Under the pieces are notes generated by a model. The model saw only the letters and a list, made by a program, of their open reading frames with translations. It was not told the DNA's origin and searched no databases. From positions 1 through 30,905 of IMG/VR virus record IMGVR_UViG_3300044638_005617: a DNA stretch of 30,905 nucleotides; one strand, 5' to 3'. The translations under genes were made by a program, and so were the position numbers. This stretch comes from a virus. Shown here in pieces: positions 3-21,251 of this stretch. The first letter of the stretch is position 1. Every line of letters starts with the position of its first letter.

Positions 3-887
3 TCTTATGAGGATCAGTTTAGTTTATTGACATATACCATTCGTAAATATAATCCAACTATTAAAATATATGCAGTGACACCGTCTCGCTATTCTATAGG
101 GGAAAAAACACATAAACACATTGAAAAATATAATATAAAACATATTAACTGCCCAGAACTTCATAACGAAGTAAAAGATTGTAAAGAAAACATATTTATT
201 GATATTATAAAACCAAAATCTCTTTTATTTGCTAAAAAATATGTTACAGAAGATTTTATATTATATTTAGATAATGATGCAGTTTGTTTTGGAGATTTAT
301 ATTCAATACTTGAAAAATATACTTCATCATATTTTTGTCCTAGCAGTCAAAATGTTTTAAGCACAGCTAATAAAAATTCTATCAATTTAGAAGCGAAATA
401 CCGAAATGAAGCGAAAAAATTTTATAGCTTAATTGACAACACTGATTGGTTTAATTATTTTCCTTCGGGATGGTTTATATTACATAATACACAATCAAAT
501 TTTTGGCAACACTGGTTAGATACTATATTGATGTTAACTAATAAAATTAATGGTTGTATTGTTTCTAAATTGAAAGATGATTATATTTACATGACAATGC
601 TAAATCTTGTGTTAGAAGCCAGTTTGTATAAATTAACAACAAAATATAAATTTGAGTTTGTTAACACAAATATTGCACATTTATGTTATTTTAATAAAGA
701 AGATATTTTAAACCCTCAATATCCTTTAATATATAATTATGGAGGATTTAATCAATACGCATATCACATTTCTCATATTGAGTATATAAATAAATTTCTA
801 CTTGATAATAATATTAATATTAATCATACGTCTCGTGGGCCATTAGATGACGAATCTGGACAAATGTTAAGAATAGATTACAAATGA
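3..887 (+). CDS. Glycosyltransferase-like protein, 5' end outside the window
   Basis: The frame is open from the first complete codon at position 3, so the gene begins upstream. The TTG at 27 is an internal leucine codon, not a real start. About 294 residues are visible. A DND triad follows a hydrophobic strand (LYLDND, bases 264-281), the usual layout of the metal/nucleotide-sugar site of GT-A glycosyltransferases. A later GWFILHN segment fits that fold. The likely role is sugar transfer from a nucleotide sugar in the phage cytoplasmic glycan pathway; donor and acceptor are unknown. The stop overlaps the next start by ATGA, so translation is probably coupled. The gene is very AT-rich even for this window. 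The family assignment rests on motif and context only. Confidence 0.55.
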   Translation, partial: SYEDQFSLLTYTIRKYNPTIKIYAVTPSRYSIGEKTHKHIEKYNIKHINCPELHNEVKDCKENIFIDIIKPKSLLFAKKYVTEDFILYLDNDAVCFGDLYSILEKYTSSYFCPSSQNVLSTANKNSINLEAKYRNEAKKFYSLIDNTDWFNYFPSGWFILHNTQSNFWQHWLDTILMLTNKINGCIVSKLKDDYIYMTMLNLVLEASLYKLTTKYKFEFVNTNIAHLCYFNKEDILNPQYPLIYNYGGFNQYAYHISHIEYINKFLLDNNININHTSRGPLDDESGQMLRIDYK

Positions 888-1807
888 AAAAAATAGTACT
901 TCAAATAGCTCTAACTAACGTATGCCCACTGAATTGTTCATATTGCTGTATGAATTTTTCTTCAGAAGAAGACAATAAAAGATATAAAAATAATATATTA
1001 TTAGATAGAATAGTAAATTTAATAAACTATCTAATAGATAGAGGTTATTACGTAGAATTTGGAAGCGGATGGGGAGAACCTCTTTTAATTTTCAACCAGA
1101 TTAAATATATTTTTGATCATATTGAAAGACGCGATAATATAAATTTTGAATTATTATCTTCATTTGCGTTTGATTCAAAAAATAATTATAAATCAGTATT
1201 TACTCAACTTGATAAATATCAAGATTTATTTGAATATTATAAAATACCATATAGTGTTCGTTGGTCAATACATACCGAATATTTAAGTACTAATGAACAA
1301 ATACATTCTCATTATCAATTATTGAATTCTAAAATTAATAGTAAATTTATACCAATGATTATGATGAATACTAAGAAAAACATTTGGCAATTCAAATTTT
1401 TAAAAAATAAAATTAATAATTTAGAATATCATTTAATTTTAGATAATGAAGGCAATTGTCCGCTATTAGCCGATTTAACAGATTTAGAGTTAAATATTTT
1501 AAAAAGTATGCCATATTTTGTCAGAGGAGCACACATTGTGGATAGAATCCGAAATAAAAATTTTAGCTTTACTGGTACTCTATGTCATTTAGATAATTTA
1601 ATAGCGATTATGCCTTCTGGAAGAGTTGTTAAATGTATCAATGATATATATCAGTTTCCACAAAAAAACTTTCGCGATAGTAATGTAAAATTGTTAACTG
1701 AAGTATCAAATGAATATGTTGAAAATTTAGGCATTTCTAATTCTTTGTGTAAACATAAAGAATGTAATATTTGTGCAACCGATCCAGTTGATGTATATGA
1801 CACATAA
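884..1807 (+). CDS. Radical SAM protein with C-terminal cysteine cluster (SPASM/twitch-like)
   Basis: The N-terminus carries the radical SAM signature CxxxCxxC (C14, C18, C21), which binds the 4Fe-4S cluster that cleaves S-adenosylmethionine. About 45 residues later comes GWGEPLL, the 'GGE'-type motif that contacts the SAM amino group. The C-terminal 80 residues hold further cysteines (GTLC, VVKC, then CKHKECNIC), which looks like a SPASM or twitch auxiliary-cluster domain. The length of 307 residues is normal for the family. The ATG overlaps the preceding stop (ATGA), and the 3' end overlaps the transketolase-like gene. The context suggests radical chemistry on a sugar or sugar nucleotide, such as epimerisation or dehydration, but peptide modification cannot be excluded. 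The substrate is unknown. Local GC is very low, one counted 60-base line being about 15%. Confidence 0.85.
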   Translation: MKKIVLQIALTNVCPLNCSYCCMNFSSEEDNKRYKNNILLDRIVNLINYLIDRGYYVEFGSGWGEPLLIFNQIKYIFDHIERRDNINFELLSSFAFDSKNNYKSVFTQLDKYQDLFEYYKIPYSVRWSIHTEYLSTNEQIHSHYQLLNSKINSKFIPMIMMNTKKNIWQFKFLKNKINNLEYHLILDNEGNCPLLADLTDLELNILKSMPYFVRGAHIVDRIRNKNFSFTGTLCHLDNLIAIMPSGRVVKCINDIYQFPQKNFRDSNVKLLTEVSNEYVENLGISNSLCKHKECNICATDPVDVYDT

Positions 1808-2474
1808 ACTAATTGATTTTTCTAAAGTCAACGGTATATCTCATATACCGTCAGCATTATCTATGCTTGACTATATTAATATATTATTCTCTGAGAAATA
1901 TATAATTCCATTTAAAGATAAAATTATATTGGGAAAACCATTTGGGTCTCAGGCTTATTATTTAGTATGGAAGGAGTGTGAATATTTAAAAGATATTGAA
2001 AATCTTTCTATAGGAGTTAAACATATTGAAATTCCATTTGTTGATTTCAGTGAAGAAACTATGGGCAATGCATTAGGAGTAGCATCTGGAATTGCCATTG
2101 CAGAATCTGACACAATAGTGTATGTTAATCTAAGTGATGCATCACTTCAAATGGGTTCAACTCTTGAAGCAATTGCATATATAGGTGCAAATCAATTGAA
2201 GAATATTGTAGTTACAGTTGACTATAATCAAATGCAAGTAACAGGAAAAACTGATGATATAATTTGCATAAAACCAATTATAAATCTGTTTAGAGACTAT
2301 GATTGGCAAGTTATTGAAGTAGATGGTCACGATAAAAATAAATTACGGTTAGCATTTGATAGTATTCATACAAGAAATAAACCAACTGTTTATTTTTGTC
2401 ACACTATAAAAGGAAAGGGAGTAGATTACATGGAATCTGATCCAGTATCTTGGCATTATAAATTATTAGTATGA
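1797..2474 (+). CDS. Transketolase-like enzyme, thiamine-diphosphate-binding (N-terminal) subunit
   Basis: This is the first half of a split transketolase. The stretch SDASLQMGSTLEA (from about residue 113) followed by VDYNQMQVTG (about residue 141) matches the ThDP/Mg-binding motif usually written GDG...N. The metal-binding aspartate and asparagine are kept, but the two glycines are replaced by Ser and Ala. HTIKGKG near the C-terminus is a typical transketolase element. The length from this ATG is 225 residues, shorter than the roughly 270-330 of stand-alone subunits. A GTG at 1773 and an ATG at 1791 are in frame; 1797 is chosen for the short overlap with the upstream gene. It should pair with the product of the next gene, which supplies the pyrimidine-binding domain and catalytic glutamate. 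Transfer of a two-carbon unit to a sugar is the expected reaction; the substrate is not evident. Confidence 0.85.
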   Translation: MTHKLIDFSKVNGISHIPSALSMLDYINILFSEKYIIPFKDKIILGKPFGSQAYYLVWKECEYLKDIENLSIGVKHIEIPFVDFSEETMGNALGVASGIAIAESDTIVYVNLSDASLQMGSTLEAIAYIGANQLKNIVVTVDYNQMQVTGKTDDIICIKPIINLFRDYDWQVIEVDGHDKNKLRLAFDSIHTRNKPTVYFCHTIKGKGVDYMESDPVSWHYKLLV

Positions 2475-2950
2475 GAAGAGCCTTAGATATTTTTTTAAGT
2501 CGTTATAACAATCCCGATCTGTATTTTTTACATGCTGATATGTGGAGTTTTCCTCGATTTAAAGCCAAATATCCACAACGGTGTCTTAACATTGGTGTTC
2601 AAGAAACGAATATGATTAATATTGCTGGAGGACTTGCAAGCCAAGGTAAAATTGTAATCGTCTATGGAGTTGCAGGATTTGTTTATCAACGGGCTTATGA
2701 ACAGTTGAAATTTAGTGTAACTCACTTTGGTAAGAGTGTTATATTGGTAAATGCTGGAGCTAATGGATGTTATAACAAGTGTGGAATAGGTCATATTCCT
2801 GACGATGATTATGCTCTTATGGATGCATTAAGCATAAATAAATATGAACCGCAAACATGTCAGCAGTTTATACGTACATTAAAGCAGTGTATACGAAATA
2901 AGCAAACGAATTTTATACGTTTGGGTTGGGACAATTGTGTATGGAAATAA
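2471..2950 (+). CDS. Transketolase-like enzyme, pyrimidine-binding subunit lacking the C-terminal domain
   Basis: The 159-residue protein matches the Pyr domain of transketolase/DXS enzymes. NIGVQETNM contains the conserved glutamate (E45) that activates the thiamine aminopyrimidine, and GFVYQRAYEQLK is the expected downstream helix. It ends where a normal second subunit would continue with a roughly 130-residue C-terminal domain, so that domain is absent. The ATG overlaps the previous stop by four bases, consistent with coupled synthesis of a heteromeric enzyme whose active site lies between the two chains. The C-terminal domain is not catalytic in classical transketolases, so activity is plausible. 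The gene's last ten bases overlap the next SDR gene. Confidence 0.85.
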   Translation: MRRALDIFLSRYNNPDLYFLHADMWSFPRFKAKYPQRCLNIGVQETNMINIAGGLASQGKIVIVYGVAGFVYQRAYEQLKFSVTHFGKSVILVNAGANGCYNKCGIGHIPDDDYALMDALSINKYEPQTCQQFIRTLKQCIRNKQTNFIRLGWDNCVWK

Positions 2951-3519
2951 ATTTAGTAACGGGATCACACGGTTTTTTATGCGGTCATTTATGCAAATAT
3001 TTGCCCAACGCTTTAGACTATGGAAACGTATTGCACTACTATAACATTGATTATATTGGTGCAGTGTACCATTTTGCTGGGCCAAGTGATGACTACGATT
3101 TTAAAGATGCTGACAAAACGCTAGATACTATAGTAAACGGTACTCATAACATGTTACGAGTAGCAAAACGAAATCATGCAAAGTTTATATTTGCAAGTAC
3201 AGTTGGAGTAGAAAATCCTAATAATGTCTATTGCTATAGCAAACTGTTAATGGAACAATATATAATCGATAACTATGACGATTATATTATATTGCGAATT
3301 CCACGAGTCTACGATAAGAGTCGTAAAAAAGGACTTATGAAAAAGTTACATTTGGGTCACGTCTCAAAAAATGATATGTCTAACGTAATAGAATATATAA
3401 CTTTAACATCATTTTTGGAACAGACTATAACTGCATTAAATCATAAAAACATTATATATAATTATAATAATATTCAATCTGACACTATAAAAGAAATACA
3501 TGAAAAATATAAAGGATAA
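2941..3519 (+). CDS. Short NAD-dependent epimerase/dehydratase-like (extended SDR) protein
   Basis: The N-terminus VTGSHGFLCG is the dinucleotide-binding TGxxGFxG loop of extended SDR sugar-nucleotide enzymes. FASTVGV supplies the catalytic Ser/Thr strand, and Y97xxxK101 (YCYSK) is the catalytic pair. The annotated start is the ATG at 2941; the frame extends to a TTG at 2926, but the ATG places the Rossmann strand at the expected distance. With 192 residues it is well short of the usual 300 or so, and most of the C-terminal substrate domain is missing. It may accept an unusual small substrate, act as a reductase, or work as part of a complex. It sits directly after the split transketolase genes, so the product of that enzyme is a candidate substrate. 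Confidence 0.75.
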   Translation: MEINLVTGSHGFLCGHLCKYLPNALDYGNVLHYYNIDYIGAVYHFAGPSDDYDFKDADKTLDTIVNGTHNMLRVAKRNHAKFIFASTVGVENPNNVYCYSKLLMEQYIIDNYDDYIILRIPRVYDKSRKKGLMKKLHLGHVSKNDMSNVIEYITLTSFLEQTITALNHKNIIYNYNNIQSDTIKEIHEKYKG

Positions 3520-4348
3520 TTTTCATAATTATACAAATAAAGAATATCATCATACCAATGAATATGACACGTTGATAAAAAATGAATTAAAAATAGATAG
3601 TTGGGTATTTTTATCTAGATATATTGTTTTTGAACCGCATACTAAACGTAAATTTATAATTAAAAAATATATTTTTGACAAAACAAGATGGACACTTAAT
3701 GCAAATCTTCAAAATACTTCACTAAATAAAAATCATCAAGAATTAGATAAAATATATTCGTTTGAGTATGAAAATTTTAAAAACAAATATAACGAAGACA
3801 TATATCCATATATTTTCAATGAAATAACATATCATAAAATATTAGATTGCTTTAAATATTGTTGCAATCATGATTTTCTACCAAACATTTTGTCTGAAAC
3901 TGATAATTTTTTAGAAGTAGAATATTTTGATTCATCAGAATGGAGACCAACTACTCCTCGCGAAAGATCGACAGATAGATATTTCACTGTTTTAGATAGT
4001 TATTATTCATATATAAAAGATTTAGAGTTATGTATAACAATCGATTGTCATAATTATAACGTAATGGTTAACAGAAAAACTGGAAAATTTAAAAATATAG
4101 ATATAGAAGATTTATGGCCTCCGAATCATTTTATACCTAATATTTGTTGGTATCATATTGATAAGCATGAAGAATTTTCTGCATACTATATATTAAGAAC
4201 TGATTATAGTGGATCACATAAAATGTTTAATCATACACTAGAATATTATAGCGATTTGCTAAAAGTTATTAATACTGATAGAATATATATTCACGAAAAA
4301 CCTATATACTGTACTGACGATTATAAAAATTTACCACATAAGATATGA
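3500..4348 (+). CDS. Kinase-fold-like protein of unknown substrate
   Basis: No family is recognised with confidence. The 282-residue protein has a pattern in its second half resembling protein-kinase/aminoglycoside-phosphotransferase active sites: a catalytic-loop-like TIDCHNYNVMV (D182 and N187, spaced as DxxxxN) followed about 14 residues later by IDIED (D201/D204), which would match the metal-binding aspartate. A lysine-bearing strand, KFIIKKYIF (residues 51-59), could be the ATP-binding lysine strand. If correct, it would phosphorylate a sugar or another small molecule in the surrounding glycan pathway. The ATG overlaps the preceding gene by 20 bases and its stop overlaps the next start (ATGA). 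Base composition is markedly AT-rich compared with the following genes. Confidence 0.4.
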   Translation: MKNIKDNFHNYTNKEYHHTNEYDTLIKNELKIDSWVFLSRYIVFEPHTKRKFIIKKYIFDKTRWTLNANLQNTSLNKNHQELDKIYSFEYENFKNKYNEDIYPYIFNEITYHKILDCFKYCCNHDFLPNILSETDNFLEVEYFDSSEWRPTTPRERSTDRYFTVLDSYYSYIKDLELCITIDCHNYNVMVNRKTGKFKNIDIEDLWPPNHFIPNICWYHIDKHEEFSAYYILRTDYSGSHKMFNHTLEYYSDLLKVINTDRIYIHEKPIYCTDDYKNLPHKI

Positions 4349-5199
4349 AAATATTGATTACTGGGGGTGATGGATTTATTGGCCGCGCTTGCGTAGAAAC
4401 CTGGTCAAACATTCATGATATTACTTCTTTAGACAAAAAATCTGGAGTAGATCTTTGCTCTGATTCGTACACATTAGAATGGTCGATAGCAAACTGTGAT
4501 GTCGTGTATCATGCAGCAAGTCCTGTAGGTATTGATCTTATTGATCAGCATCGTGATTCTTTTTTAAATGATATGATAAAGATGAATCTTAAAGTATTTA
4601 ATTTGGTTAAAAAATATAATAAAAAAATTGTATTTTTTAGTAGTTCAGAAGTTTATAAAGATTGTGATGGAGCATCAGAAAATGATAATTTAACAATAGG
4701 TTCTCCTAATATTCCTAGATGGGGCTATGCTAGCGGTAAATTAACTTCTGAATTTTTGTGTAAAAGCTTATGTCCACAATCCATAATTATACGGCCATTT
4801 AATATTTGTGGAGCGTATGATCGTAAAGGAGTGTTATTTTCCTTTATGAATAGTATTCGTAGTGGGTCTGATATTTGTATTCATGGAAATGGAAATCAAG
4901 TTCGATCGTTTTGTGATATTCGTGATCTTGTTGCATTTTTGGATATACTAAATAGTCATGAATTTAACGGAGAAATATATAATGTTGGAAATAGTGAAAA
5001 TTCTATTTCAGTAAATGAACTTGCTAAACTGTGCATAGGCATTTCTAATTCATCAGTAAAAATAAATCATGCTCAGTATTCTGATTGTTTTTCTGATAAA
5101 CATCGTGATATTATATATCGAAAACCAAACTGTGCTAAAATGTATGATTTGTATAGACCGCAATACAATCTTATAGATATAATAAAAAGTATGCTATGA
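4345..5199 (+). CDS. NAD-dependent sugar-nucleotide epimerase/dehydratase (extended SDR)
   Basis: This is a full-length extended SDR of 284 residues. GGDGFIG (residues 7-13) is the NAD-binding loop, DVVYHAAS is the cofactor-binding strand, SSSEVY (about 99-104) carries the catalytic serine, and Y128xxxK132 (YASGK) is the catalytic Tyr-Lys pair. IIRPFNICG and RSFCDIRD are typical of UDP-glucose 4-epimerase/dTDP-glucose dehydratase relatives, which act on nucleotide-linked sugars in the cytoplasm. Which sugar is used cannot be told. The gene overlaps both neighbours by ATGA and precedes a LmbE-type deacetylase, a pairing that fits N-acetylated sugar nucleotides. Confidence 0.85.
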   Translation: MKILITGGDGFIGRACVETWSNIHDITSLDKKSGVDLCSDSYTLEWSIANCDVVYHAASPVGIDLIDQHRDSFLNDMIKMNLKVFNLVKKYNKKIVFFSSSEVYKDCDGASENDNLTIGSPNIPRWGYASGKLTSEFLCKSLCPQSIIIRPFNICGAYDRKGVLFSFMNSIRSGSDICIHGNGNQVRSFCDIRDLVAFLDILNSHEFNGEIYNVGNSENSISVNELAKLCIGISNSSVKINHAQYSDCFSDKHRDIIYRKPNCAKMYDLYRPQYNLIDIIKSML

Positions 5200-5843
5200 A
5201 AAATATTGTTGTAATTGGAGCTCACTTAGATGATGCAGAATTTGGTATGGGAGGTACCATTGCTAAACTATCCAACGACTATAAGATAACTCTTTGCGTT
5301 TTCTGTAAAGGAAATCGTCCAGGTTCAGAGTTTGTTCAATCTTCTCGTGAAGATGCAATAAGAAATAATATAACAGATCTAAATATATCTGAGTATATTC
5401 AGTTAGACTATTCTGATATATCTCTTGACACAATTCCATTTATTGAAATTTCTTCGCGTATAACTAAACTTGTAGATAAAATTTCTCCATACACAGTATT
5501 TACACACTACTCACAGGACATTCATACCGATCATAAGATAATATCAAATGCTACACGAGTAGCATGTCGTCCAAGAGAATCATGTAGTGTGCATGAACTA
5601 TATGAATATTCAATACCGGGAAGTACTGAATGGTCGTTTACTGATACAAAATTTAATACATTTTTTGATATTTCTAACTATACCCATATAAAATACGAAT
5701 GTATATCACGCTATAAAACTGAAGTAAAAACCGAGATTGACCCGTTAAATTTAGAATATGTAAAACACAGAGATCTTTATTATGGTGGATTGTTTGGATA
5801 TAGAGCAGCTGAACCGTTTATAAACATTTTTTCAAAGCGATGA
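5196..5843 (+). CDS. LmbE/PIG-L family deacetylase
   Basis: The N-terminal motif AHLDDAEFGMGG (H10, D12, D13) and the later HTDH (H110, D112, H113) are the two zinc-site motifs of the PIG-L/LmbE metal-dependent N-acetylglucosamine deacetylase family. The length, 215 residues, is normal. Members remove N-acetyl groups from GlcNAc-containing lipids, glycosides or sugar intermediates. Here the likely role is deacetylation of an amino sugar made by the adjacent SDR enzyme. It has no signal peptide and should be cytoplasmic. The start is fixed by the ATGA overlap with the upstream stop, and the same overlap links it to the next gene. Confidence 0.88.
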   Translation: MKNIVVIGAHLDDAEFGMGGTIAKLSNDYKITLCVFCKGNRPGSEFVQSSREDAIRNNITDLNISEYIQLDYSDISLDTIPFIEISSRITKLVDKISPYTVFTHYSQDIHTDHKIISNATRVACRPRESCSVHELYEYSIPGSTEWSFTDTKFNTFFDISNYTHIKYECISRYKTEVKTEIDPLNLEYVKHRDLYYGGLFGYRAAEPFINIFSKR

Positions 5844-6562
5844 AAAAGCAAAAAATTATTATTGCTGGATATGGAGAAATAGGTCAAGCAATACACCAAT
5901 TTTATAATCAGCATGATTATGAATTGAGTATAGTCGATATTGACGTATCACTATCTCAATGTCATTGCGACATCTTGCATATATGTTTTCCGTATTCTGA
6001 TAATTTTGTCGTTGAAGTTGAAAAATATATTTCATTATTTTCTCCTCATCTCGTTATAATACACAGCACAATATATCCTGGAACATCAGAAAATATAAAG
6101 TTTAATAATTTAGTATACTCACCAATTGTTGGTGTACATCCGCATCTGCATGAGTGCATAAAGATATTTAAAAAATTCGTTGCTGGAAAAACTAAGCAGT
6201 CGATCATTGAGGCGTGCAATCATTTCTCTGAACTTGGAATTGCATCTACCACATTTAAATGTTGCAAATCGCTTGAAACTGCAAAGACTCTGTGTACACT
6301 CTATTATGGTATGTGCATAGCTTTTCATGATGAAGTACATGACTTATGTAAAAAAGAATCTATCGACTATTCAGAAGTTATGACTCTTTGGAATTCTGAA
6401 TATAATTCTGGCTATAAAAAAATTGGAAAAGATAATGTGGTACGACCAGTGCTGTCTCCGGCTCATGGAAAAATTGGAGGACATTGTGTTATACCAAATG
6501 CCGAAATGATCGCTTCATATTTTAACAGTCCAATAATAGACTATGTTTTGAGATTAAAATGA
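5840..6562 (+). CDS. Shortened UDP-glucose/GDP-mannose-6-dehydrogenase-like protein
   Basis: The N-terminus has a Rossmann GYGEIG loop (G10xG12xxG15). The segment SLETAKTLCTLYYGM followed by AFHDEV resembles the central helix of UDP-sugar 6-dehydrogenases, and GKIGGHCVIP contains the family's catalytic cysteine (C216) in its GGHC context. The usual enzymes are about 400-450 residues with a C-terminal UDP-binding Rossmann domain; this protein stops at 240, just after the catalytic loop. Either a non-UDP substrate is oxidised, or the partner domain is supplied elsewhere, or the activity has diverged. It could make a uronic acid or another oxidised sugar for the glycan. It is embedded in the operon with ATGA overlaps on both sides. 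Confidence 0.72.
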   Translation: MKKQKIIIAGYGEIGQAIHQFYNQHDYELSIVDIDVSLSQCHCDILHICFPYSDNFVVEVEKYISLFSPHLVIIHSTIYPGTSENIKFNNLVYSPIVGVHPHLHECIKIFKKFVAGKTKQSIIEACNHFSELGIASTTFKCCKSLETAKTLCTLYYGMCIAFHDEVHDLCKKESIDYSEVMTLWNSEYNSGYKKIGKDNVVRPVLSPAHGKIGGHCVIPNAEMIASYFNSPIIDYVLRLK

Positions 6563-7089
6563 AACCGACTCTAATGATACATGAATTTCAAGAAAAGTAT
6601 CTTGATCTTCCGTTAGAAAAATATACACTTACGTTTGACGATGGGTTGTATAGTCAATATGCATTCGTCGACGAGTTGTTGAGAATAAACACAGAAAAGA
6701 TATTTTTTATTAGCAGCGATATAGTCTGTCCTGAAGATCAGACTCAAGACACATCATTCATTTGTTGTAGAGATGCTCATGACAAAGCATTCACTGGAGA
6801 CTATAGCAACTATATGAAGTGGTCACAAATAACGCATCTTGATGGTTTAAATCGCTGTAGAATAGGATGTCACGGTCATAAACATATTCATAATATAGTT
6901 TCTGATCCTTTAATGATGCTTAAAGACAACCGAAGAATGATACACTCGTTTAGATGCCATTTGGGATATGTTCCAGATAGTTTTTGCTTTCCGTATAATA
7001 TAGAGTCTGGTATGTATAAAACTATACTACAAAAGTATGGATTTGAACATTTTTATGGCGATGAGAGAATAGATATAGATGAGTTATGA
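6559..7089 (+). CDS. NodB-type polysaccharide deacetylase-like protein (CE4)
   Basis: TFDDG (residues 25-29) is NodB motif 1, with the catalytic base and metal-binding aspartate. GCHGHKH (H105 and H109, an HxxxH spacing) matches the metal-binding histidines of motif 2. CFPYN (about residues 147-151) is close to the motif 3 'RxPY' position. At 176 residues it is a minimal CE4 domain. There is no signal peptide, so a cytoplasmic substrate such as a sugar intermediate or lipid-linked glycan is more likely than cell-wall polymer. It is the second predicted deacetylase in the operon. ATGA overlaps join it to both neighbours. Confidence 0.8.
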   Translation: MKPTLMIHEFQEKYLDLPLEKYTLTFDDGLYSQYAFVDELLRINTEKIFFISSDIVCPEDQTQDTSFICCRDAHDKAFTGDYSNYMKWSQITHLDGLNRCRIGCHGHKHIHNIVSDPLMMLKDNRRMIHSFRCHLGYVPDSFCFPYNIESGMYKTILQKYGFEHFYGDERIDIDEL

Positions 7090-7718
7090 ATATCGATGCG
7101 ATTACAGTCTCAATTGACTATAGTGACTATTTGGAACAGATAGTCAGCAATAAAGATAAATTTACACGATGGCTAATCGTTACACACTGGAGTGATAAAA
7201 AGACTATAGATTTATGTAAAAAATATAGTTTAGACTATATGCTTAGCGAGGAAATTTATGCAGATGGAGCATGTTTTGCTAAAAGTCGAGCAATAAATGA
7301 AGCTATACGACATCTAAATCCACATGATTGGTTGTGCGTGCTTGACAGTGATTCTCTGCTTCCAGATGACTTTAAATCAGTAATCAAAACCGATGTAAAT
7401 GATAAAGAAGCAATATATGGTTGCGTACGCTACACTCGCGATGGTGTTAGAAAGATAGAAAATTTTGACGGAGCATACAACTATCCGGCTGGTTTTTTTC
7501 AGCTATGGCACACATCTAAATTTAATGACTATTATGCGGGTGACATGACAAATACTGAAGGAGATCTACAGCATAAAAATAGATTTGAAAAATCACAACT
7601 GTTGCCATTAAAACTAATCGATATGCAAAAAGAGACTGGTTTTAAGGAAAACTGGTATGGGCGGGGACCAATTGGCAAAACTCGCCATAGGTTGTATGCA
7701 AATAATCAATCTATATAA
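7086..7718 (+). CDS. GT-A glycosyltransferase-like protein
   Basis: A DSD triad (D87-S-D89) sits after the hydrophobic strand WLCVL, the metal-binding position of GT-A glycosyltransferases, and the segment FAKSRAINEAI before it is typical of GT2-like folds. The protein is 210 residues with no membrane segment. It is the last gene of the overlapping glycan block, and its stop codon lies inside the late promoter for the giant fibre gene. Acting late in the glycan pathway, possibly on the fibre proteins encoded next, is an inference from position. The acceptor is unknown. Confidence 0.65.
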   Translation: MNIDAITVSIDYSDYLEQIVSNKDKFTRWLIVTHWSDKKTIDLCKKYSLDYMLSEEIYADGACFAKSRAINEAIRHLNPHDWLCVLDSDSLLPDDFKSVIKTDVNDKEAIYGCVRYTRDGVRKIENFDGAYNYPAGFFQLWHTSKFNDYYAGDMTNTEGDLQHKNRFEKSQLLPLKLIDMQKETGFKENWYGRGPIGKTRHRLYANNQSI

Positions 7719-7721
7719 ATA
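7714..7721 (+). promoter_or_regulatory. T4-type late promoter element for the fibre gene
   Basis: An exact TATAAATA lies 6 bases before the fibre ATG at 7728 and overlaps the stop codon of the upstream glycosyltransferase-like gene. In T4 this element at about -10 is read by polymerase carrying the late sigma factor gp55. The start of transcription would fall at or just before the ATG. Confidence 0.75.
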
Positions 7722-7727: not shown

Positions 7728-10700
7728 ATGGCAACATATTCAGATATTTTTATAGATCAGGGGAGCACATTTTCATCTGTTATAGATGTGCCAGATACAA
7801 ACGGATTGCCGTTTAATTTGTCTAGCTATACAGCTCGTGGACAAATACGCAAAACATATACATCAAAAAATGTAGTTACTTTTACAACATCTATCGACCT
7901 TCCACTTGAAGGAAAGGTTAATATTTCATTAACTGCAGGGCAAACACGAGCCATGAAAGCTGGTCGTTATCTGTATGATATTGAGATATTTAATAGCACT
8001 GGTCATATATTTAGAATTCGCGAAGGACAGGTAGAAATTTCTCCAGGAATATCTGAAGATAACGGGGGTATAGAATTAATACCAGATCCACCAACAATAT
8101 ATGAAATTATTGATGAACGAATAGACGCTCGTACTATAGTAACTGATAAATTATTGACATTGTCAGCGTTTGAAGAAACAAATTTTTATGCTAATAGCAA
8201 ATTAAATCAAAATTTAGCTTTAAAAGCACCTTTAGATTCTCCAGTATTTACTGGAATTCCAATTGCCCCAACTGCTAGCTTTAATACAAATAATCAACAG
8301 ATAGCAACTACGCAATTTGTTCGTACTGCGATTAATAATCTAATAGACGGCGCACCTAATGTGTTAGATACATTAAATGAATTGGCTGATGCGATTGGAA
8401 ATGATGCAAATTTTTCTACGACAATTATAAATGGTCTTTCAGGAAAAGCACCGTTAAATTCTCCAAGTTTCACTGGAACGGTAAGTGGTATCACAAAGGC
8501 AATGGTCGGTCTTGGAGATGTAGACAATACAAGTGACTTAGACAAACCCGTTTCAACCGCAACTCAAACAGCGTTGAACGCTAAGGTTGATAAAGTAAGC
8601 GGTCAAGGGCTGTCTGACGAAAACTACACACTAATTGAAAAAAATAAACTAGCTGGAATACAAAATGGAGCAACATCAAATTCTACTGATGCGTATCTAC
8701 TCAGTCGCGCAAATCATACTGGCAGTCAATCATACACAACTATAACAGGATTAGGAACACTTGCGACTCAAAGCGGAACCTTTAGTGGCTCTTCAAGTGG
8801 TACAAATACTGGTGATCAGACTATTACTCTGGGTGGAGATGCTACTGGTAGTGGGACAGCACTGTTAAATGTGACATTGGCTTCAACAGGGGTATTTGCT
8901 GGCGAATATAACAGCAGCGCAACAAGTGTTACACCATTTACGGTTGACATTAAAGGACGCATTACTGCAGTTGATACTCCAATCACTATTACTCCAAGTT
9001 GGAATTCAGTAACAGACAAACCAACTACAGTATCTGGTTATAGCATCACTGATGCGGTAGATTTGACTAGTGCACAAACTATATCAGGTGTTAAAGATTT
9101 TACAAGCAGTCCCACAGTTCCGCTTATACCAACTGCATCTGGACACGCTGCATCAAAAGCATATGTTGACACCCTTTCTGAAGGTCTACACGTACACGCT
9201 GCCGTGCATGCGCTGCTTAAGACTCCACTTGCAACCACAATTGGTGGTGGAGTTACTATAACCTATAGTAATGGCACAAATGGAGTAGGAGCAAAATTAA
9301 CGGCGTCTGCACCAGTGACATGGACAACCGTTTTTAATGACTCTGACATTGCAAATGACAGTCGAGTAATAATTGCAGGCCAAAGCACGAGTGCACATAA
9401 TGGTATATATGTTGTAAGTTCTAGTACAGAATTAATTCGTGCAGATGATTTTAATACACCAACTGAAATGGCAGGAGGTGATTTTGTTTTTGTCACTCAT
9501 GGAACATACGCCGACACTGGTTGGGTGCTTTCTGAGCCAGTGACTGAGGTTGGGGCAACTGCAGTAATATTCACACAATTTTCTGGTGCAGGTGCCTATG
9601 AAGCTGGAGCAGGACTCTCTCGCGATGGCACAACATTTTCAGTTGTAGCAGGCACAGGTATTGCAGTTGATGGAAGTGTAAGTTTGTCAACAGTAGGCTC
9701 TCCTGGCACATATCGATCAGTGACTGTTGACTCTTATGGTCGAATCACGTCTGGAACCAATCCAACTACGCTGTCTGGTTATGGAATTACAGATGCCGCG
9801 ACTTCAACTAATTTAAGCAATCATATCAGCGATGCTACAGTTCACCTAACAAGCACACAAAACACGTTGCTTGATGGCATCACTGTGACATCTGAAAAGG
9901 TTAACTATCTGTCTGACGTCACATCAAATATTCAGGGTCAATTAAATGTTAAACAACCGCTTGACTCTGACCTAACAGCAATTGCAGCATTGACTGGGAC
10001 TAGTGGACTCCTAAGAAAAACTGGGACTGACACCTGGACTCTTGATACAAACATAGATACAATAACGACCAGCACTGCTACAAACCTTACTGGTTTTATT
10101 TCTGGCAATGGAACCAACATTAGTGGCGCGACAACTGCTAGTTCAAGCGGAGGATCTGGCACATTAGTTATACGTGACACTGATGGGTCATTTAGCACAA
10201 CCTCATCTAATTCGGATGCATCTATTATTGGGGTTAATACAGGAAACGGAGGTGGTTTATCTGGACTTTCTCAGAGTGGAGCAGGTGGTGTATCTATAAC
10301 TATTGATGGAAATTATCACCATAAATTTGGAATTTTTAGTTCTGAATCAGGAGCGCCAGCAAGAGCTGCAATAGAAAGACTGCGTGGTTGGTTTGTATGG
10401 TTCCGTAGTGTAGGTGAAACATTTTTTACTGGTCGCCTAAAGACTGCTGATATTACGGCTAACCGTGAGTGGACCCTACCAAACGCATCAGGAACCCTGA
10501 CTCTTGATTCCCATACCCACTCTGATGCAACTACAAGTGTCTCTGGATTTTTATCAGCAAATGATAAAATTAAACTTGATGGCATTGCATCAGGCGCAGA
10601 GGTAAATGTTAACCCTGATTGGAATGCTACAGGTGGTGATGCCCAAATTTTAAACAAACCAACAACACTTTCAGGTTATGGCATTACTGATGCCGCGACT

Positions 10701-13436
10701 TCAACTGCACTAAGCAATCATATTAGCGATGCTACAGTTCATCTAACAAGTACGCAAAACACATTGCTTGATGGCATCACAGTGACATCTGAAAAGGTTA
10801 ACTATCTGTCTGACGTCACATCAAATATACAGAGTCAACTGAATAACAAAGCTAACCTCGAAAGTCCAAATTTCTCTGGAACAGTAGGTGGTATCACAAA
10901 GAGTATGGTTGGACTGGGCAATGTAGACAATACGAGTGACCTCAATAAACCAATATCTACTGCAACTGCGACTGCATTAAACAATAGAGTTGATTTAAGT
11001 GAATCACAAACTATAACTGGAACAAAAACAATAAATGCTCCAATAACGGTTAATAATAAATTCGTTACTATTCGTGGAACACCAACAGAATCACAATATG
11101 GGTTAAATATTATAAATAATGGCAACTTTGACCCAGGCACTCCATTGGTAGTTGATGGTAGAGCGCGGGTTGTTCATGGTATGACATTTGCCGCAGGTAT
11201 ACCAAACTTTACAAATGGCAGTGATCATACTCACGTTCAGTGGACAACGCAAAATCGTCAAAGTTGGCAAATGATTCAAAATGGCGGAGCAAGTAATACT
11301 AATGCAAATACTTTTACGTTGACTACTGTAATGACTACTGCGTCTTTACAATTTTTTAATGAGTCAAATATACACAGCATCGACACACGAGAAGTTGTGG
11401 TGACAAACAATGTATTTCCATTTCTTGCGACTGGTTTAAAAATAAATTATAACGCTAATGCAACTGGATTAAATGTTGGTGATTTTATTCAAATAACTAT
11501 GAATCCAGCTCCTCCTGGTGTAGTAGCAAATACCTACAACGGGATCGTCACTGCTGGTCCTACAACAGTAACGATCGATGGGGAATCTAAAATTCAATAT
11601 ACCTTTTCGTTAGAAGGATTTAATAGCGTAAATTGGACTCCAAGTTTAGCAAGTTTTTCAACTACATTTGTTAATCCAGTAAGTGGTTTTAATAATATTA
11701 GAGTTTCATTTGCACCAACAGAATTAACCGGAACACGAGTGTCATTGACTGGAGCATGGTCTGGTATAGGCAGATATGTTAAAGTTGAAATGACAGGACA
11801 TAATGCATTTGAGGGACTACCATTAGTATTTACTGTTGCTGGAAGCACTAAAATTGGATTAGTAGTTGGAAGTTATAATGCATTTGTTAAAAAAGTCATT
11901 GATGCCAATACGTTTATAATTTCTGTTGGAAATGCTATTAGCGGGTTTAATACTACTAGTGGAACTTATGCGGGAGCCACTGGTTGGACATTATATAGAG
12001 GATCTACTGATGCAATTCACCAATATACTCCATCAACATCACATTTTATTTTCCATCGTTTTCCAACTTCTAATACGACCCCTACAACAACTGGTGGTAG
12101 TAAAGCAATATCTTTAGGAAATTGCGCAGAAGTTGAAGGAAACTTTTCATATTCTTTTGGTCATAAGGCAGGAGTGTTTGCTGATCATTCTATGGCACTT
12201 GGCGGAGAAGATAGTTTTATTAATGCTAATTATAGCACTACAGTTGGAGGTCAAGGACTTGTTTCATCTGGTGTATATCAAACAATTATTGGCAAATATA
12301 ATACGATTGATACATCAAACACAAAACCATTTATTGTTGGTTGGGGATCGAGCGACTCTAGTCGATCGAACCTTTTAGAGTTATCAAATACGACTCTTAC
12401 GCTAAACACTGCAATAAATGCAAGTGGTTCAGCAACTGCTTCATCATTCATAAGATCTGGCGGCACAAGTGCACAATTTTTAAAGGCTGATGGAACTACA
12501 CAACAATTAATTACTGGCAAGACGCTCTATGTAGATGCAGTTACTGGAACAGATATACGCGGACCAAATAGTGATTATAGTCTTTCATCTCCATTCGCAA
12601 CTATAGGCGAAGCGGTGGCTGCTTCTGAAGATGGTGATCTTGTTTATGTTCGCGCTGGATCTTATACAATATCTTCACCAATTTCATTAAACGGCAAGGG
12701 TAATATATATTTTGAAACAGCGGCATCAATTACAATTGCTGGCAATACAGTTGCGTTTTCTCTTACTGCAAATGAAACTAAAACGGTTAATGGATTTGCT
12801 CAATTCGCGTTAAGTAATACAGCAGGCATACTAACACAATCAAATGGAGTTTTAGTTTTAGAATATCAGAGTATTATGAGCGCCTCAACAGACACTCTAT
12901 TTAGAGTATCTGGAGGCTCATTAAGTACAAGTTTTGCGGGTATTGTAGCACCTACAACAGACGGATTTGTGTTGACCGGAAATGGAACACTGGTAATTCG
13001 CCGTTCCCACACCGCGTCATGCAAACAATTTTTAAACTGCAATACTAGTGGAGCTGTTACTATGGACATATGGACTGTCGTAGGAGCTTCCTCAGATGCG
13101 ACTATTCGCATTGTTAATCATGATGGATTTTCGTATCGTGGAGTCAACTTAAACAACAACTCATCTAGTCCATGCATTGTTTTTGCATACACCGGTGGAA
13201 CTAATGCTCCAGTCTTACGAAACTTAAGATTAACAACAAGCGGAACTGGTATTTCTATTGATACCGCTACTGCAACAAGAAATATATTCTTAGATCAAAT
13301 TAAAATAAATGCCACCAACAGTCTATCAGCTACCGCACCTACAACTGTTTATTCTACCACAACATACAGCACTGTCGCGCCTGATGCTAACGTAACAGTT
13401 GATGGTCAATATAATATAATGTCTAACCTTTTCTAA
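7728..13436 (+). CDS. Giant modular tail-fibre / adhesin protein
   Basis: This 1902-residue protein is low in cysteine and rich in Ser, Thr, Gly and Asn, as expected for a trimeric fibre. Residues 1-110 form a beta-rich N-terminal domain (RYLYDIEIF, FRIREGQVEI), probably for virion attachment. From about 165 there are phage-fibre repeats of the type PLxSPxFTG, and SGITKAMVGLGDVDNTSD recurs near 1050. Residues 480-640 match a widespread fibre module (GIYVVSSS, GGDFVFV, GWVLSEP, AGAGLSRDG). A module with SGYGITDA...HISDATVHLTSTQ occurs twice. Residues 1455-1525 show YadA-head-like beta-roll repeats (YSFGHKAGV, HSMALGG, STTVGGQG). From about 1590, a right-handed beta-helix begins (TLYVDAVTGTD, DLVYVRAGSYTI). 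It should bind the host surface. No chaperone or intramolecular autoprotease domain was recognised. Confidence 0.85.
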   Translation: MATYSDIFIDQGSTFSSVIDVPDTNGLPFNLSSYTARGQIRKTYTSKNVVTFTTSIDLPLEGKVNISLTAGQTRAMKAGRYLYDIEIFNSTGHIFRIREGQVEISPGISEDNGGIELIPDPPTIYEIIDERIDARTIVTDKLLTLSAFEETNFYANSKLNQNLALKAPLDSPVFTGIPIAPTASFNTNNQQIATTQFVRTAINNLIDGAPNVLDTLNELADAIGNDANFSTTIINGLSGKAPLNSPSFTGTVSGITKAMVGLGDVDNTSDLDKPVSTATQTALNAKVDKVSGQGLSDENYTLIEKNKLAGIQNGATSNSTDAYLLSRANHTGSQSYTTITGLGTLATQSGTFSGSSSGTNTGDQTITLGGDATGSGTALLNVTLASTGVFAGEYNSSATSVTPFTVDIKGRITAVDTPITITPSWNSVTDKPTTVSGYSITDAVDLTSAQTISGVKDFTSSPTVPLIPTASGHAASKAYVDTLSEGLHVHAAVHALLKTPLATTIGGGVTITYSNGTNGVGAKLTASAPVTWTTVFNDSDIANDSRVIIAGQSTSAHNGIYVVSSSTELIRADDFNTPTEMAGGDFVFVTHGTYADTGWVLSEPVTEVGATAVIFTQFSGAGAYEAGAGLSRDGTTFSVVAGTGIAVDGSVSLSTVGSPGTYRSVTVDSYGRITSGTNPTTLSGYGITDAATSTNLSNHISDATVHLTSTQNTLLDGITVTSEKVNYLSDVTSNIQGQLNVKQPLDSDLTAIAALTGTSGLLRKTGTDTWTLDTNIDTITTSTATNLTGFISGNGTNISGATTASSSGGSGTLVIRDTDGSFSTTSSNSDASIIGVNTGNGGGLSGLSQSGAGGVSITIDGNYHHKFGIFSSESGAPARAAIERLRGWFVWFRSVGETFFTGRLKTADITANREWTLPNASGTLTLDSHTHSDATTSVSGFLSANDKIKLDGIASGAEVNVNPDWNATGGDAQILNKPTTLSGYGITDAATSTALSNHISDATVHLTSTQNTLLDGITVTSEKVNYLSDVTSNIQSQLNNKANLESPNFSGTVGGITKSMVGLGNVDNTSDLNKPISTATATALNNRVDLSESQTITGTKTINAPITVNNKFVTIRGTPTESQYGLNIINNGNFDPGTPLVVDGRARVVHGMTFAAGIPNFTNGSDHTHVQWTTQNRQSWQMIQNGGASNTNANTFTLTTVMTTASLQFFNESNIHSIDTREVVVTNNVFPFLATGLKINYNANATGLNVGDFIQITMNPAPPGVVANTYNGIVTAGPTTVTIDGESKIQYTFSLEGFNSVNWTPSLASFSTTFVNPVSGFNNIRVSFAPTELTGTRVSLTGAWSGIGRYVKVEMTGHNAFEGLPLVFTVAGSTKIGLVVGSYNAFVKKVIDANTFIISVGNAISGFNTTSGTYAGATGWTLYRGSTDAIHQYTPSTSHFIFHRFPTSNTTPTTTGGSKAISLGNCAEVEGNFSYSFGHKAGVFADHSMALGGEDSFINANYSTTVGGQGLVSSGVYQTIIGKYNTIDTSNTKPFIVGWGSSDSSRSNLLELSNTTLTLNTAINASGSATASSFIRSGGTSAQFLKADGTTQQLITGKTLYVDAVTGTDIRGPNSDYSLSSPFATIGEAVAASEDGDLVYVRAGSYTISSPISLNGKGNIYFETAASITIAGNTVAFSLTANETKTVNGFAQFALSNTAGILTQSNGVLVLEYQSIMSASTDTLFRVSGGSLSTSFAGIVAPTTDGFVLTGNGTLVIRRSHTASCKQFLNCNTSGAVTMDIWTVVGASSDATIRIVNHDGFSYRGVNLNNNSSSPCIVFAYTGGTNAPVLRNLRLTTSGTGISIDTATATRNIFLDQIKINATNSLSATAPTTVYSTTTYSTVAPDANVTVDGQYNIMSNLF
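9774..9947 (+). repeat. Intragenic repeat copy 1 in the fibre gene
   Basis: This 174-base unit recurs at 10671-10844 with only scattered, mostly third-position differences. It encodes SGYGITDA ... ISDATVHLT ... VTSEKVNYLSDV, a fibre module of 58 residues. The close match at DNA level implies recent duplication or gene conversion. Confidence 0.9.
10671..10844 (+). repeat. Intragenic repeat copy 2 in the fibre gene
   Basis: This is the second copy of the 174-base unit at 9774-9947. In copy 1 it precedes an unrelated segment; here it is followed by the AMVGLG-type module also seen near 8460-8580. The fibre was therefore assembled by shuffling modules. Copies in direct orientation can recombine to delete or swap the 0.9 kb between them. 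Confidence 0.9.
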
Positions 13437-13820: not shown

Positions 13821-15365
13821 ATGAATATACGAAATATTAATCTTGCAGCAGCATCGAGCAATATTATTAATCCTGCATTTGGCGCGATGCGTTCTAAGAC
13901 CGATGCAGAAATGCTTTCTATGTTAGGAACAAAGCCAGGCGGTGCAGCTAACATGGAATTATGGTCTGCTAGAAACTCAACAGCTAATCCTCCAACATAC
14001 ACTCGAAACCCAAATTTATGGTGTAATGAACTTGTGTCTCAACTTACTGCTGCCGTAGCTTATAAAGATGATGTAACTGGTGGTAAACAAAGCTATGGCG
14101 GCATATTAATAAGCCCACGACACGTTCTTTATTGTGAACACTCAAAGCCTCATGCAAGAAACACATGGTTCGTAAATTATAATAGTACTAAAGAATGTAA
14201 CTTACACTTTGTTCTTGCAAATGGTAGTGTAGTAGAAGCAGTTCAAATTGCGCAAACTACAGTTAGGCCTACTCGCGATAGGCCTGGAGCATACACCCCG
14301 ACTGACTATCCGACTGATACCATTTACAGTCAAACATTCGCTGGTGGTACTAATCCAATTGTTGGCACAACTTCAACTGTTGGTGGGATAGTTCAACACC
14401 CAGAAAGATTCAACGGTCTCAATAGCACTTGGACTGGAGCCAACATCATTAATTTAGATGGGAATAGCACTAGCAATTCTGGTGCCATTTCCTTGCCATT
14501 CACTCCGCAGAGTGGCTATATCTATGATCTCACAGCGAACATAAACGTGACTGCTGGCAATAATTCTTGGTTTGGAGTGGGATTTCTTGAGGACAACAGT
14601 GCCTATGGGTTTTATGCAAATAAACCTGCAGCACTTCGTAGAAGCACTGGCTGGGAGATCTATCCACAAAATACTGCGGTTTCAGTGACGAGTAATGAGG
14701 TGACTGTTCGATTGGATACCTCTATACCACAGTGGAGGATATCTATATTTCAAGGAGGTGTTCAAATTGGCAGCACCTATACCTATACGACGAATCCCAA
14801 AATCAACTATGTTGGGTTTGTATCCGAAGGGACAGCAGTGGCTAGCGTCAGCGTTTTCAAGTTGACAGTTACGACATCTGCCCAAGATTTGTGTGTAGCA
14901 GTACTTGATAGAGACGTTCAGGCGCTTGGTGTACATGTTATGCCAATACCAAAATTAACATTGCAAGACTTGGGTTACATCTCAACTCCTGCTATCTCGC
15001 ATATTCATGTCACACAAGGATACGAAAGAACTACTTCTTCAATCCCACCAACACCACGTTCTGATTATCCACAATATCATAATTCAATGGTTGCAGTAGG
15101 ACACGGCAGCATGTCGATGCCACCATTAAATTCGACATTAACAACTATTGATTATGCAGTATGGGACGGAGACAGTGGCACGCCGTCAATGATGCTATTA
15201 AACGGAAAATTATATTTACACAGACTTATAGGAGCATCAAATATTCCCAATAACATTGGTCATATTAACGCAATGATTGCAGTCGCTGAAGACGATGCTA
15301 TATCTCGTGGAAGGTTAGCAGCACGTACTGGAATAACAGTTCCACTAGTGCCGGTTGTAATTTAA
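13821..15365 (+). CDS. Trypsin-like serine-protease-fold structural protein with an inserted lectin-like domain
   Basis: The 514-residue protein shows the chymotrypsin/trypsin layout. SYGGILISPRHVLYCEHS (91-108) resembles the 'GGxLISPRxVLTAAHC' strand and gives catalytic H107. DLCVAVLDRDV (from D356) resembles the 'DIALL' strand with the catalytic aspartate. WDGDSGTP (448-455) is the GDSGGP motif with S452. LYLHRLIG follows where trypsins have 'LvGivS'. The His-to-Asp distance is about 249 residues instead of about 45, because residues 155-353 hold a beta-sandwich-like insert (YIYDLTANINV, GVGFLED, WRISIF, YVGFVSEG) resembling LamG/concanavalin-type lectin folds. The roughly 50 N-terminal residues resemble a virion-attachment or fibre-linking segment. 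It lies in the fibre operon. It could cut a host surface protein, process a fibre, or use the fold only for binding. Confidence 0.72.
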   Translation: MNIRNINLAAASSNIINPAFGAMRSKTDAEMLSMLGTKPGGAANMELWSARNSTANPPTYTRNPNLWCNELVSQLTAAVAYKDDVTGGKQSYGGILISPRHVLYCEHSKPHARNTWFVNYNSTKECNLHFVLANGSVVEAVQIAQTTVRPTRDRPGAYTPTDYPTDTIYSQTFAGGTNPIVGTTSTVGGIVQHPERFNGLNSTWTGANIINLDGNSTSNSGAISLPFTPQSGYIYDLTANINVTAGNNSWFGVGFLEDNSAYGFYANKPAALRRSTGWEIYPQNTAVSVTSNEVTVRLDTSIPQWRISIFQGGVQIGSTYTYTTNPKINYVGFVSEGTAVASVSVFKLTVTTSAQDLCVAVLDRDVQALGVHVMPIPKLTLQDLGYISTPAISHIHVTQGYERTTSSIPPTPRSDYPQYHNSMVAVGHGSMSMPPLNSTLTTIDYAVWDGDSGTPSMMLLNGKLYLHRLIGASNIPNNIGHINAMIAVAEDDAISRGRLAARTGITVPLVPVVI

Positions 15366-17352: not shown

Positions 17353-17980
17353 TGATAGTCAACTAAAAGACTATATTAAAAAATTATCTACTATACATGA
17401 GGTAGATATATTTCTACATACTTGGAAAGAATCAGAAGCTAAAAGTTCATATCGCAAATTAGATCATACTAGTGTGTTTAAGGTGACTCCTAATATTTTA
17501 AAAGAATATTTTGGGGATCTGCCAATTAAAAATATTATAGTTGATAATGATTCTAAACTAGAATTGCATGGAAATCTAGAAGGAACTATGCCAAACAGCA
17601 AATGCCCAATGATTGCATGGAAGCGTATGTGGGCAGGACAATTTAAGATGATTACATACCTGTATGACAATCATCGCAATGACTATGACCGTGTTGTAAA
17701 CACGCGATATGACTTTTTTACTCATAAGTTGTGTTATACTCCAATTAAAAATCTTTTAAAGATGACAGCAGAACAATCTGCATTAACTATAAAATATCCG
17801 CAATACTATCGACATTTACTAGGAGCCGATAATTATTATGTCGGCAAACTAGATACACTCTATGACCTGATAGGTGATTTTCATTATAAATTAGACGATA
17901 TTTTAGAAAAATGTCCAATTAGACAATATCAAGAAGAACTTTTATATAAATACGCGAAATACAAAGGATTAGTCGCATAA
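17306..17980 (+). CDS. Putative glycosyltransferase-like protein, tandem copy 2
   Basis: The 224-residue paralogue of the preceding gene shares MKIAFCIRGHIR, DIFLHTWKESEAK, CPMIAWKRMW, NTRYDFF and ADNYYVG. Its ATG lies inside copy 1, and the first 47 bases overlap copy 1 in a different frame. The first 21 bases of both copies are identical, which marks a tandem duplication. Spacing of all motifs is intact, so neither copy looks broken. Two related transferases in a row could add successive residues or different sugars to the same glycan. Confidence 0.65.
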   Translation: MKIAFCIRGHIRTGFNDSQLKDYIKKLSTIHEVDIFLHTWKESEAKSSYRKLDHTSVFKVTPNILKEYFGDLPIKNIIVDNDSKLELHGNLEGTMPNSKCPMIAWKRMWAGQFKMITYLYDNHRNDYDRVVNTRYDFFTHKLCYTPIKNLLKMTAEQSALTIKYPQYYRHLLGADNYYVGKLDTLYDLIGDFHYKLDDILEKCPIRQYQEELLYKYAKYKGLVA

Positions 17981-21232: not shown

Positions 21233-21251
21233 ATCAACATAGTTTATTATT

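Follow-up and report, generated by a model that had tools for sequence, protein, structure and literature searches.

A radical-SAM-rich gene cassette with a split transketolase beside the tail fibre of a T4-like phage: a candidate sugar pathway

The first eleven open reading frames (ORFs) of a viral fragment in IMG/VR (record IMGVR_UViG_3300044638_005617; 30,905 bases, the whole of which is here called the window) form an array at positions 3-7718, all on the + strand and each overlapping the next, as an initial annotation of this DNA had described. The phage is T4-like, also as first proposed, because gp13, gp14, gp15, terminase, sheath, tube, portal, protease and scaffold genes of the gp13-gp20 series occupy 20486-30905; the nearest deposited terminase, 60% identical, is that of Phage C48C1 (Kyanoviridae). 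Seven of the ten junctions in the array are 4-base ATGA overlaps (884-887, 2471-2474, 4345-4348, 5196-5199, 5840-5843, 6559-6562 and 7086-7089), and the other three overlap by 10-20 bases, including 20 bases between ORF 5 and ORF 6 (3500-3519), once two start codons are corrected. Because homologues in L004, a related locus (L numbers denote loci mapped here), are 79% and 71% identical and start there, ORF 3 most likely begins at ATG 1797 (11-base overlap) rather than at the listed GTG 1773, and ORF 5 at ATG 2941 (10-base overlap) rather than at the listed TTG 2926. The contig end cuts ORF 1 at its 5' end, and the array may continue upstream in this phage, as it does by about 10 genes in relatives. 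The eleven genes are as follows.

3-887, + strand: ORF 1, putative GT-A (GT8-like) glycosyltransferase, 5'-cut (invariant D90xD92; AlphaFold2 model and Foldseek; hidden Markov model family)
884-1807, + strand: ORF 2, radical SAM protein with CxxxCxxC and SPASM/twitch-like C-terminal cysteines (PF04055, 1.1e-7)
1797-2474, + strand: ORF 3 (TKn), transketolase thiamine-diphosphate chain (PF00456, 5e-16; 6yak N-chain, E 2.8e-24)
2471-2950, + strand: ORF 4 (TKp), transketolase pyrimidine-binding chain (6yaj C-chain, E 3.6e-14; alignment; tree)
2941-3519, + strand: ORF 5 (SDRa), a short protein of the short-chain dehydrogenase/reductase (SDR) family (PF01370, Epimerase, 1.2e-10)
3500-4348, + strand: ORF 6, no assigned family (sole relative found, L061:6893-7591, 34%)
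4345-5199, + strand: ORF 7 (SDRb), SDR resembling UDP-xylose synthase (UXS), ArnA and 4,6-dehydratases (PF01370, 4e-32)
5196-5843, + strand: ORF 8, PIG-L/LmbE de-N-acetylase (PF02585, 1e-18; BshB1, 3.6e-19)
5840-6562, + strand: ORF 9, UDP-glucose dehydrogenase (UGD)-like protein (UGD family, 9e-5, below cut-off; 7kws, 1.7e-6)
6559-7089, + strand: ORF 10 (pdac), NodB-type polysaccharide deacetylase (phrog_26430, 3.6e-21)
7086-7718, + strand: ORF 11 (GTb), GT2-like glycosyltransferase (PF00535, 5e-4, below cut-off)

Judged from gene layout in related phages, the array is the 3' end of a phage cassette of about 20 genes that is rich in radical-SAM enzymes. When viral contigs were scanned, the two transketolase chains returned 11 and 9 loci, a TKp profile returned 43 and a deacetylase (pdac) profile 74; about 60 loci were mapped, and co-occurrence was counted in 27 distinct TKp-anchored and 27 pdac-only contigs. 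The repeated layout consists of radical-SAM genes interleaved with genes for ~320-aa and ~220-aa (GT2) proteins, followed by TKn, TKp, SDRa, SDRb, PIG-L and pdac, with the UGD-like gene sometimes lying between PIG-L and pdac and GTb sometimes after pdac. The order from TKn to pdac is present in the window as in its TKp-anchored relatives. Seven of the ten genes preceding TKn in L004, the locus closest to the window in the transketolase region, encode radical-SAM proteins; the window shows one radical SAM gene upstream of TKn, and the contig ends at ORF 1. TKp-anchored contigs carry TKn (27/27), SDRa (26/27), PIG-L (25/27), SDRb (23/27) and pdac (23/27), and 26 of the 27 hold at least three radical-SAM genes, with a median of five within 10 kb, while the pdac-only contigs hold PIG-L in 19, SDRb in 20 and radical SAM in 21 cases. 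Across contigs, SDRb adjoins PIG-L 34 times, PIG-L adjoins pdac 28 times and TKp adjoins SDRa 24 times. Comparison of eight genes with L004 gave pN/pS values of 0.05-0.36, indicating purifying selection on all of them. The proposal that these genes are a functional set is thus borne out by co-occurrence, kept order and purifying selection, and the homologues are not scattered but keep their gene order in relatives; the eleven genes are not a unit by themselves, however, the array being the end of the larger cassette.

Identity among the cassette genes is uneven: UGD-like, PIG-L and pdac proteins are 95-99% identical to those of L061 and GTb 77%, and TKp is 86% identical to that of L004, with silent sites heavily diverged. 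Genes inside the cassette therefore appear to be exchanged between phages. The set had also been thought larger and odder than is usual in T4-like phages. It is not larger than all, because P-SSM2 and S-SSM7 have large lipopolysaccharide (LPS) clusters, which are likewise extensive sugar-gene islands in T4-like marine phages (PMC3037559). Its oddity does hold for radical-SAM content, with 3-12 such genes per record in cassette phages against one in C48C1 and 0, 0, 0, 1 and 0 in five cyanophages including P-SSM2 and S-SSM7; neither of these two genomes has a radical SAM, TKn or PIG-L gene of the cassette family.

Relatives carry further enzymes. A flavin halogenase-like gene (~420 aa; PF04820, E near 1e-60) often lies between TKn and TKp, occurs within phage cassettes L010, L012, L013, L014, L015 and L016, and is bound to the transketolase variant (14 of 26 transketolase cassettes, 0 of 13 others); because the WxWxIP motif occurs in only some members, halogenation is not assured. 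A U32-like family of 271-293 aa with four invariant cysteines occurs in 21 loci, and the structure that Foldseek ranks first for its AlphaFold2 model (pLDDT 88.8) is a U32 peptidase (E 7.5e-6), with no sequence match in the PDB. Sister cassettes carry genes for a DegT aminotransferase, an arginine-deiminase/amidinotransferase-like protein and a 2-oxoglutarate (2OG) oxygenase, the second of which echoes the glycine amidinotransferase of radical-SAM modules in Campylobacter phages CP220 and CPt10. A radical-SAM gene with a B12-binding domain (~509 aa) was also seen in several cassettes (L084, L093, L097, L038 and L043).

In profile searches both chains of the transketolase pair match the solved split-chain transketolase of Carboxydothermus (6yak N-chain, 6yaj C-chain), with which they share separate thiamine-diphosphate and pyrimidine chains and the catalytic Glu; the canonical GDG and the C-terminal domain are lacking. 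TKp, 159 aa long against 341 aa in 6yaj, has an invariant catalytic Glu45 in the alignment, and its Pfam match to the transketolase pyrimidine domain (6e-6) falls just below cut-off. In TKn, GDG is changed to SDA and GH to PF, with the Mg-binding Asp and Asn retained. Because of these changes and the missing C-terminal domain, substrate use has probably changed. Split-gene transketolases of the miharamycin and amipurimycin pathways have been proposed to attach a hydroxyacetyl group as a branch on keto sugars, although the reaction is unproven (PMC12247030). Those enzymes are likewise two-chain transketolases in a sugar pathway, but they belong to Streptomyces secondary-metabolite clusters, and the phage pyrimidine chain differs in having no C-terminal domain.

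Of the patterns found, the alternation of the transketolase genes with DegT tells the most. Among 39 cassettes with SDRb, PIG-L and pdac, 24 carry only the transketolase, 12 only DegT, two both and one neither (Fisher 2.8e-7, a p-value that overstates the evidence, the contigs being related). SDRa accompanies the transketolase pair so strictly that 26 cassettes have both and none has the pair alone, and the amidinotransferase-like gene accompanies DegT. The simplest reading of this near-exclusive alternation is a common keto-sugar intermediate, which it suggests would be branched by the transketolase in one variant and aminated by DegT in the other.

Nine of the eleven array products fall in recognisable sugar or radical-SAM families, much as first annotated. 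ORF 2 is 37% identical to L007:8420-9310, which is equally placed before TKn; neither ORF 2 nor ORF 9 has a match in the phage collection, and ORF 8 has only weak ones. SDRb keeps YxxxK and matches PRK11908 (1.4e-20) and LegB (1.5e-16) in NCBIfam. Catalytic residues are invariant in the alignments of TKp, PIG-L, pdac and the UGD-like protein: in PIG-L the zinc ligands; in pdac, whose Pfam NodB-type match (2.5e-4) is below cut-off, TFDDG and HxxxH; and in five rows for ORF 9 the Cys of GGHC. The last protein has NAD and central domains and ends at 240 aa, with no match to the UDP-binding C-terminal domain (UDPG_MGDP_dh_C); it is 98-99% identical to its counterparts in L004 and L061 and 50-53% to those in L008 and L063. 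GTb is kept next to pdac in L004, L008, L010, L061 and L065. ORF 1 has no Pfam family match, but an iterative profile collection gave a family of about 23 members in cassette loci, and an AlphaFold2 model from a 17-row alignment (mean pLDDT 72.8) has GlyE/glycogenin and GT8 folds as top Foldseek matches, with E values of 0.006-0.03, all above 0.005; its assignment as a GT8-like GT-A glycosyltransferase is weak. The label "kinase-like" first given to ORF 6 is unsupported, as no match was found in Pfam, PHROGs or NCBIfam, and the profile of a look-alike group (cluster 47) failed to recover it.

In sequenced bacteria the cassette is nearly absent. TKp homologues were found at 43 viral loci as compared to two contigs among 84,980 bacterial and archaeal genomes, in a pattern and profile scan that could miss divergent copies. 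One of the two, L059 (8.4 kb, in a Marinimicrobia metagenome-assembled genome, MAG), is most likely of viral origin and was apparently binned with a bacterial genome by mistake, because its TKp is identical to that of viral contig L011 and gene layout and sizes are the same. Given this near absence from the genomes scanned, a host-derived island was rejected. The only chromosomal copy, L060, lies on a contig of a Bdellovibrionales MAG, where TKn, TKp, PIG-L, pdac, SDRa, SDRb, radical-SAM and U32-like genes are followed by suf, two-component and transporter genes, and the cassette adjoins a pilin-like protein that bears an S74 fibre chaperone domain of phage type. A Cys-rich small protein beside SPASM-type radical-SAM genes, and the S74 pilin-like protein, lie at 3972-5068 and 12145-13599 of L060. 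The U32-like family was found in two of 290 genomes of that phylum, one match being L060's own and the other weak. In a TKp tree, a 100/99 branch separates the cassette, Campylobacter phage and L060 sequences from three cellular transketolases; as these three are few and on long branches, the tree shows separation and not origin.

Campylobacter group II phages supply most or all of the matches that TKp, pdac and one radical-SAM group have in the phage collection, at 31-37% identity for TKp and pdac and 49-50% for radical SAM. These phages (CP220, CPt10, IBB_35) likewise have TKn, TKp, an SDRb-PIG-L-pdac row and a related radical-SAM gene; the 11-12 radical-SAM genes that they carry were termed highly unusual (PMC2853527), and their deacetylases were suggested to degrade host polysaccharide (PMC3322345). 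They differ in that the genes are partly dispersed and not by fibres, and that the amidinotransferase sits in an exchangeable module; no SDRa, UGD-like or GTb orthologue was found in the stretches checked. The set is only partly linked here, and yet the genes co-occur in one genome and SDRb, PIG-L and pdac remain consecutive in CP220 (CPT_0162-0164), with TKp and TKn located elsewhere.

Downstream, the array is followed by a fibre region that holds these features.

7714-7721, + strand: T4 late-promoter motif TATAAATA, just before the fibre start (motif scan)
7728-13436, + strand: tail fibre, 1902 aa (phrog_2631, 454, 7032)
15629-16627, + strand: UDP-galactopyranose mutase (PF03275, 1.9e-53)
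16624-17980, + strand: tandem overlapping paralogues, 46% identical (phrog_13607, possibly glycosyltransferase)

The genes do lie directly before the adhesin genes, as had been noted, but this placement does not imply co-transcription: because a late motif of the fibre's own lies at 7714 and the stretch 884-7700 has none, cassette and fibre are probably neighbours in separate transcription units. The motif occurs 13 times in the window, always on the + strand, against 5.8 expected (0 of 100 shuffles reach 13), and stands before many virion genes; in L004 and L061, too, a copy lies where the cassette ends. A further copy at 785, 92 bases upstream of ORF 2, could drive ORFs 2-11. Late-motif density in relatives (0.10 per kb in cassettes as compared to 0.15 in flanks) is uninformative overall, and a sigma-70 promoter scan gave sites no more numerous than in shuffles. 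Copies at 18537, 20471, 27542 and elsewhere sit 6-8 bases before start codons, and such close motifs, if used as in T4, would give near-leaderless late mRNAs.

By their gene families, the mutase and the tandem paralogues directly after it make up another small glycan locus, this one inside the fibre region. Between fibre genes, a 514-aa ORF (13821-15362), with no match in the phage collection, has a GDSG and a His region like those of trypsin-type serine proteases and a weak Pfam DUF316 match. An FG-GAP-type repeat protein (18839-20446; PF14312, 8.7e-17), just before gp13, is a possible receptor-binding propeller. A fibre-sized ORF or gp13-gp20 adjoins the cassette in many contigs. The window's combination of tail-fibre and glycan genes is that of a T4-like host recognition cluster, with gp13/gp14 downstream at 20486-22178 and the VrlC end of the region beyond the contig start. 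The host recognition cluster of pelagimyophages and cyanomyophages likewise places fibres and LPS-type genes ahead of gp13/gp14, and in the accessible part of that account radical-SAM gene cassettes are mentioned in one sentence, as additions in two genomes, without gene order, partners or function (PMC7029224).

The cassette is likely a sugar pathway of some kind. We favour, at a probability of roughly 0.38, a phage-specific cassette that would build an unusual sugar and link it to a cytosolically made acceptor, for which the receptor-binding fibres of the phage itself are the likeliest candidate. This reading draws on the kept gene order and catalytic residues, the match to the split-chain transketolase, the alternation with DegT, the resemblances of SDRb and the purifying selection, and also on the fibre-sized ORFs or gp13-gp20 genes next to many cassettes and the S74-domain neighbour of the Bdellovibrionales copy. 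SDRb would convert a nucleotide sugar to a keto sugar, and the split transketolase, lacking its C-terminal domain, would place a two-carbon branch on the ketone, which DegT would instead aminate in sister cassettes. SDRa may then reduce or epimerise, the truncated UGD-like enzyme oxidise, and the PIG-L and NodB-type enzymes remove N-acetyl groups, while the radical-SAM enzymes (with the U32-like Fe-S and flavin halogenase-like proteins of relatives) might dehydrate, epimerise, oxidise or couple. The GT-A enzymes would transfer the finished sugar to fibres encoded beside the cassette in the host-recognition region. The branched sugar of the initial annotation is a fair hypothesis by analogy with the split transketolases discussed above (PMC12247030).

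The Arn pathway for L-Ara4N comprises Ugd, the ArnA dehydrogenase, ArnB, ArnC and ArnD. An analogous set in the cassettes consists of the UGD-like protein, the UXS/ArnA-like SDR, DegT (in sister cassettes), the NodB-type deacetylase and GT2; the cassette differs in that its UGD lacks the UDP domain and that transketolase and radical-SAM enzymes are added, and no Arn-type formyltransferase or membrane ArnC/ArnT is found among the window's ORFs. Hydrophobic segments were predicted in nine of 743 cassette ORFs, where wrongly placed starts probably account for some of them, and in none of the window's eleven proteins, which thus offer no membrane flippase and undecaprenyl-phosphate (Und-P) glycosyltransferase of the gtrABC type. 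Because such segments are few, a cytosolic acceptor fits, whether phage proteins or host glycan precursors.

Several findings weigh against the fibres as acceptor. The glycosyltransferase assignments of ORF 1 and ORF 11 are weak, and soluble glycosyltransferases might just as well have host LPS core or O-units as their substrate. With no late motif in 884-7700, the cassette may be expressed earlier, apart from virion genes; the Campylobacter phage homologues adjoin nucleotide-metabolism genes rather than fibres; and radical-SAM/SPASM enzymes often modify peptides. The closest contender, itself tentative, keeps the same sugar pathway and takes as acceptor a glycan of the host envelope (LPS core, O-chain or capsule), so that the infected-cell surface would be altered, for example blocking superinfection or re-adsorption of progeny, with enzymes and fibre exchanged together. 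The match of the region to the pelagimyophage cluster, for which LPS-type genes, radical-SAM cassettes and a proposed O-chain modification are described (PMC7029224), is consistent with a host acceptor, as are the GT8-like fold of ORF 1, the UDP-galactopyranose mutase in the same region and the lack of a late motif inside the cassette. Yet clear membrane components, such as a flippase, an Und-P transferase or a polymerase, are missing from the cassette, and the sequence gives no pointer to the acceptor. Virion and host envelope are nearly equal as targets, with the virion slightly favoured.

It is unlikely that the radical-SAM array instead serves to modify peptides or proteins, or to produce a small molecule, with the sugar enzymes supplying one moiety. 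The multiple radical-SAM genes of a cassette, of which some have SPASM/twitch-type cysteines, would suit that role, as would profile matches of one radical-SAM group that include SkfB, PqqE and viperin-like enzymes, the halogenase-like and U32-like genes, the amidinotransferase-like and 2OG-oxygenase genes of sister cassettes, and the Cys-rich small protein and SPASM-type genes adjoining the Bdellovibrionales copy. However, no recurring precursor-peptide-like gene was seen in phage cassettes (short ORFs were not searched systematically), and few members are as constant as the deacetylases and SDRs. Sugar hypermodification of phage DNA, like that of arabinosyl-hydroxymethylcytosine phages, would fit the resemblance of UGD-like protein, UXS-like SDR and glycosyltransferase to a pentose route and the nucleotide genes that Campylobacter group II phages carry close to the homologues, but it is very improbable and was rejected because a thymidylate-synthase-family gene (dCMP hydroxymethylase type, PF00303) is absent from 15 of 19 cassette or comparison records, CP220 included and several being fragments, and the window itself covers an incomplete genome; moreover, no cassette glycosyltransferase matches a DNA glycosyltransferase family. 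The notion of host-derived surface-polysaccharide genes as filler, raised as "stuffer DNA" for cyanophage LPS genes (PMC3037559), is scarcely credible and was dismissed on the purifying selection, besides the order kept across divergent phages, the near absence from 84,980 genomes in the pattern scan and the 100/99 branch separating phage TKp from three cellular transketolases.

Regardless of its acceptor, the cassette counts, by its gene content, as a phage-specific variant of the phage glycan island that is rich in radical-SAM genes, partly noticed before without explanation. Literature searches that combined phage radical SAM with transketolase or deacetylase turned up no account of it, most subscription papers lying outside the coverage. 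The fuller claim, of a virus-evolved radical-SAM/split-transketolase pathway, nearly absent from cells, that builds a sugar foreign to the host, exists in two interchangeable variants (branched or aminated) and decorates the virions of many aquatic T4-like phages, in the fibre region, and of Campylobacter phages, is less likely than not as a whole. Phage radical-SAM genes were called highly unusual in 2010, and no later explanation was found. One conserved cassette with defined sugar partners, present in culturable Campylobacter phages as well as uncultivated aquatic ones, turns them into a testable pathway, and if the proposal is true, phages would offer a kind of sugar chemistry that has no known cellular counterpart.

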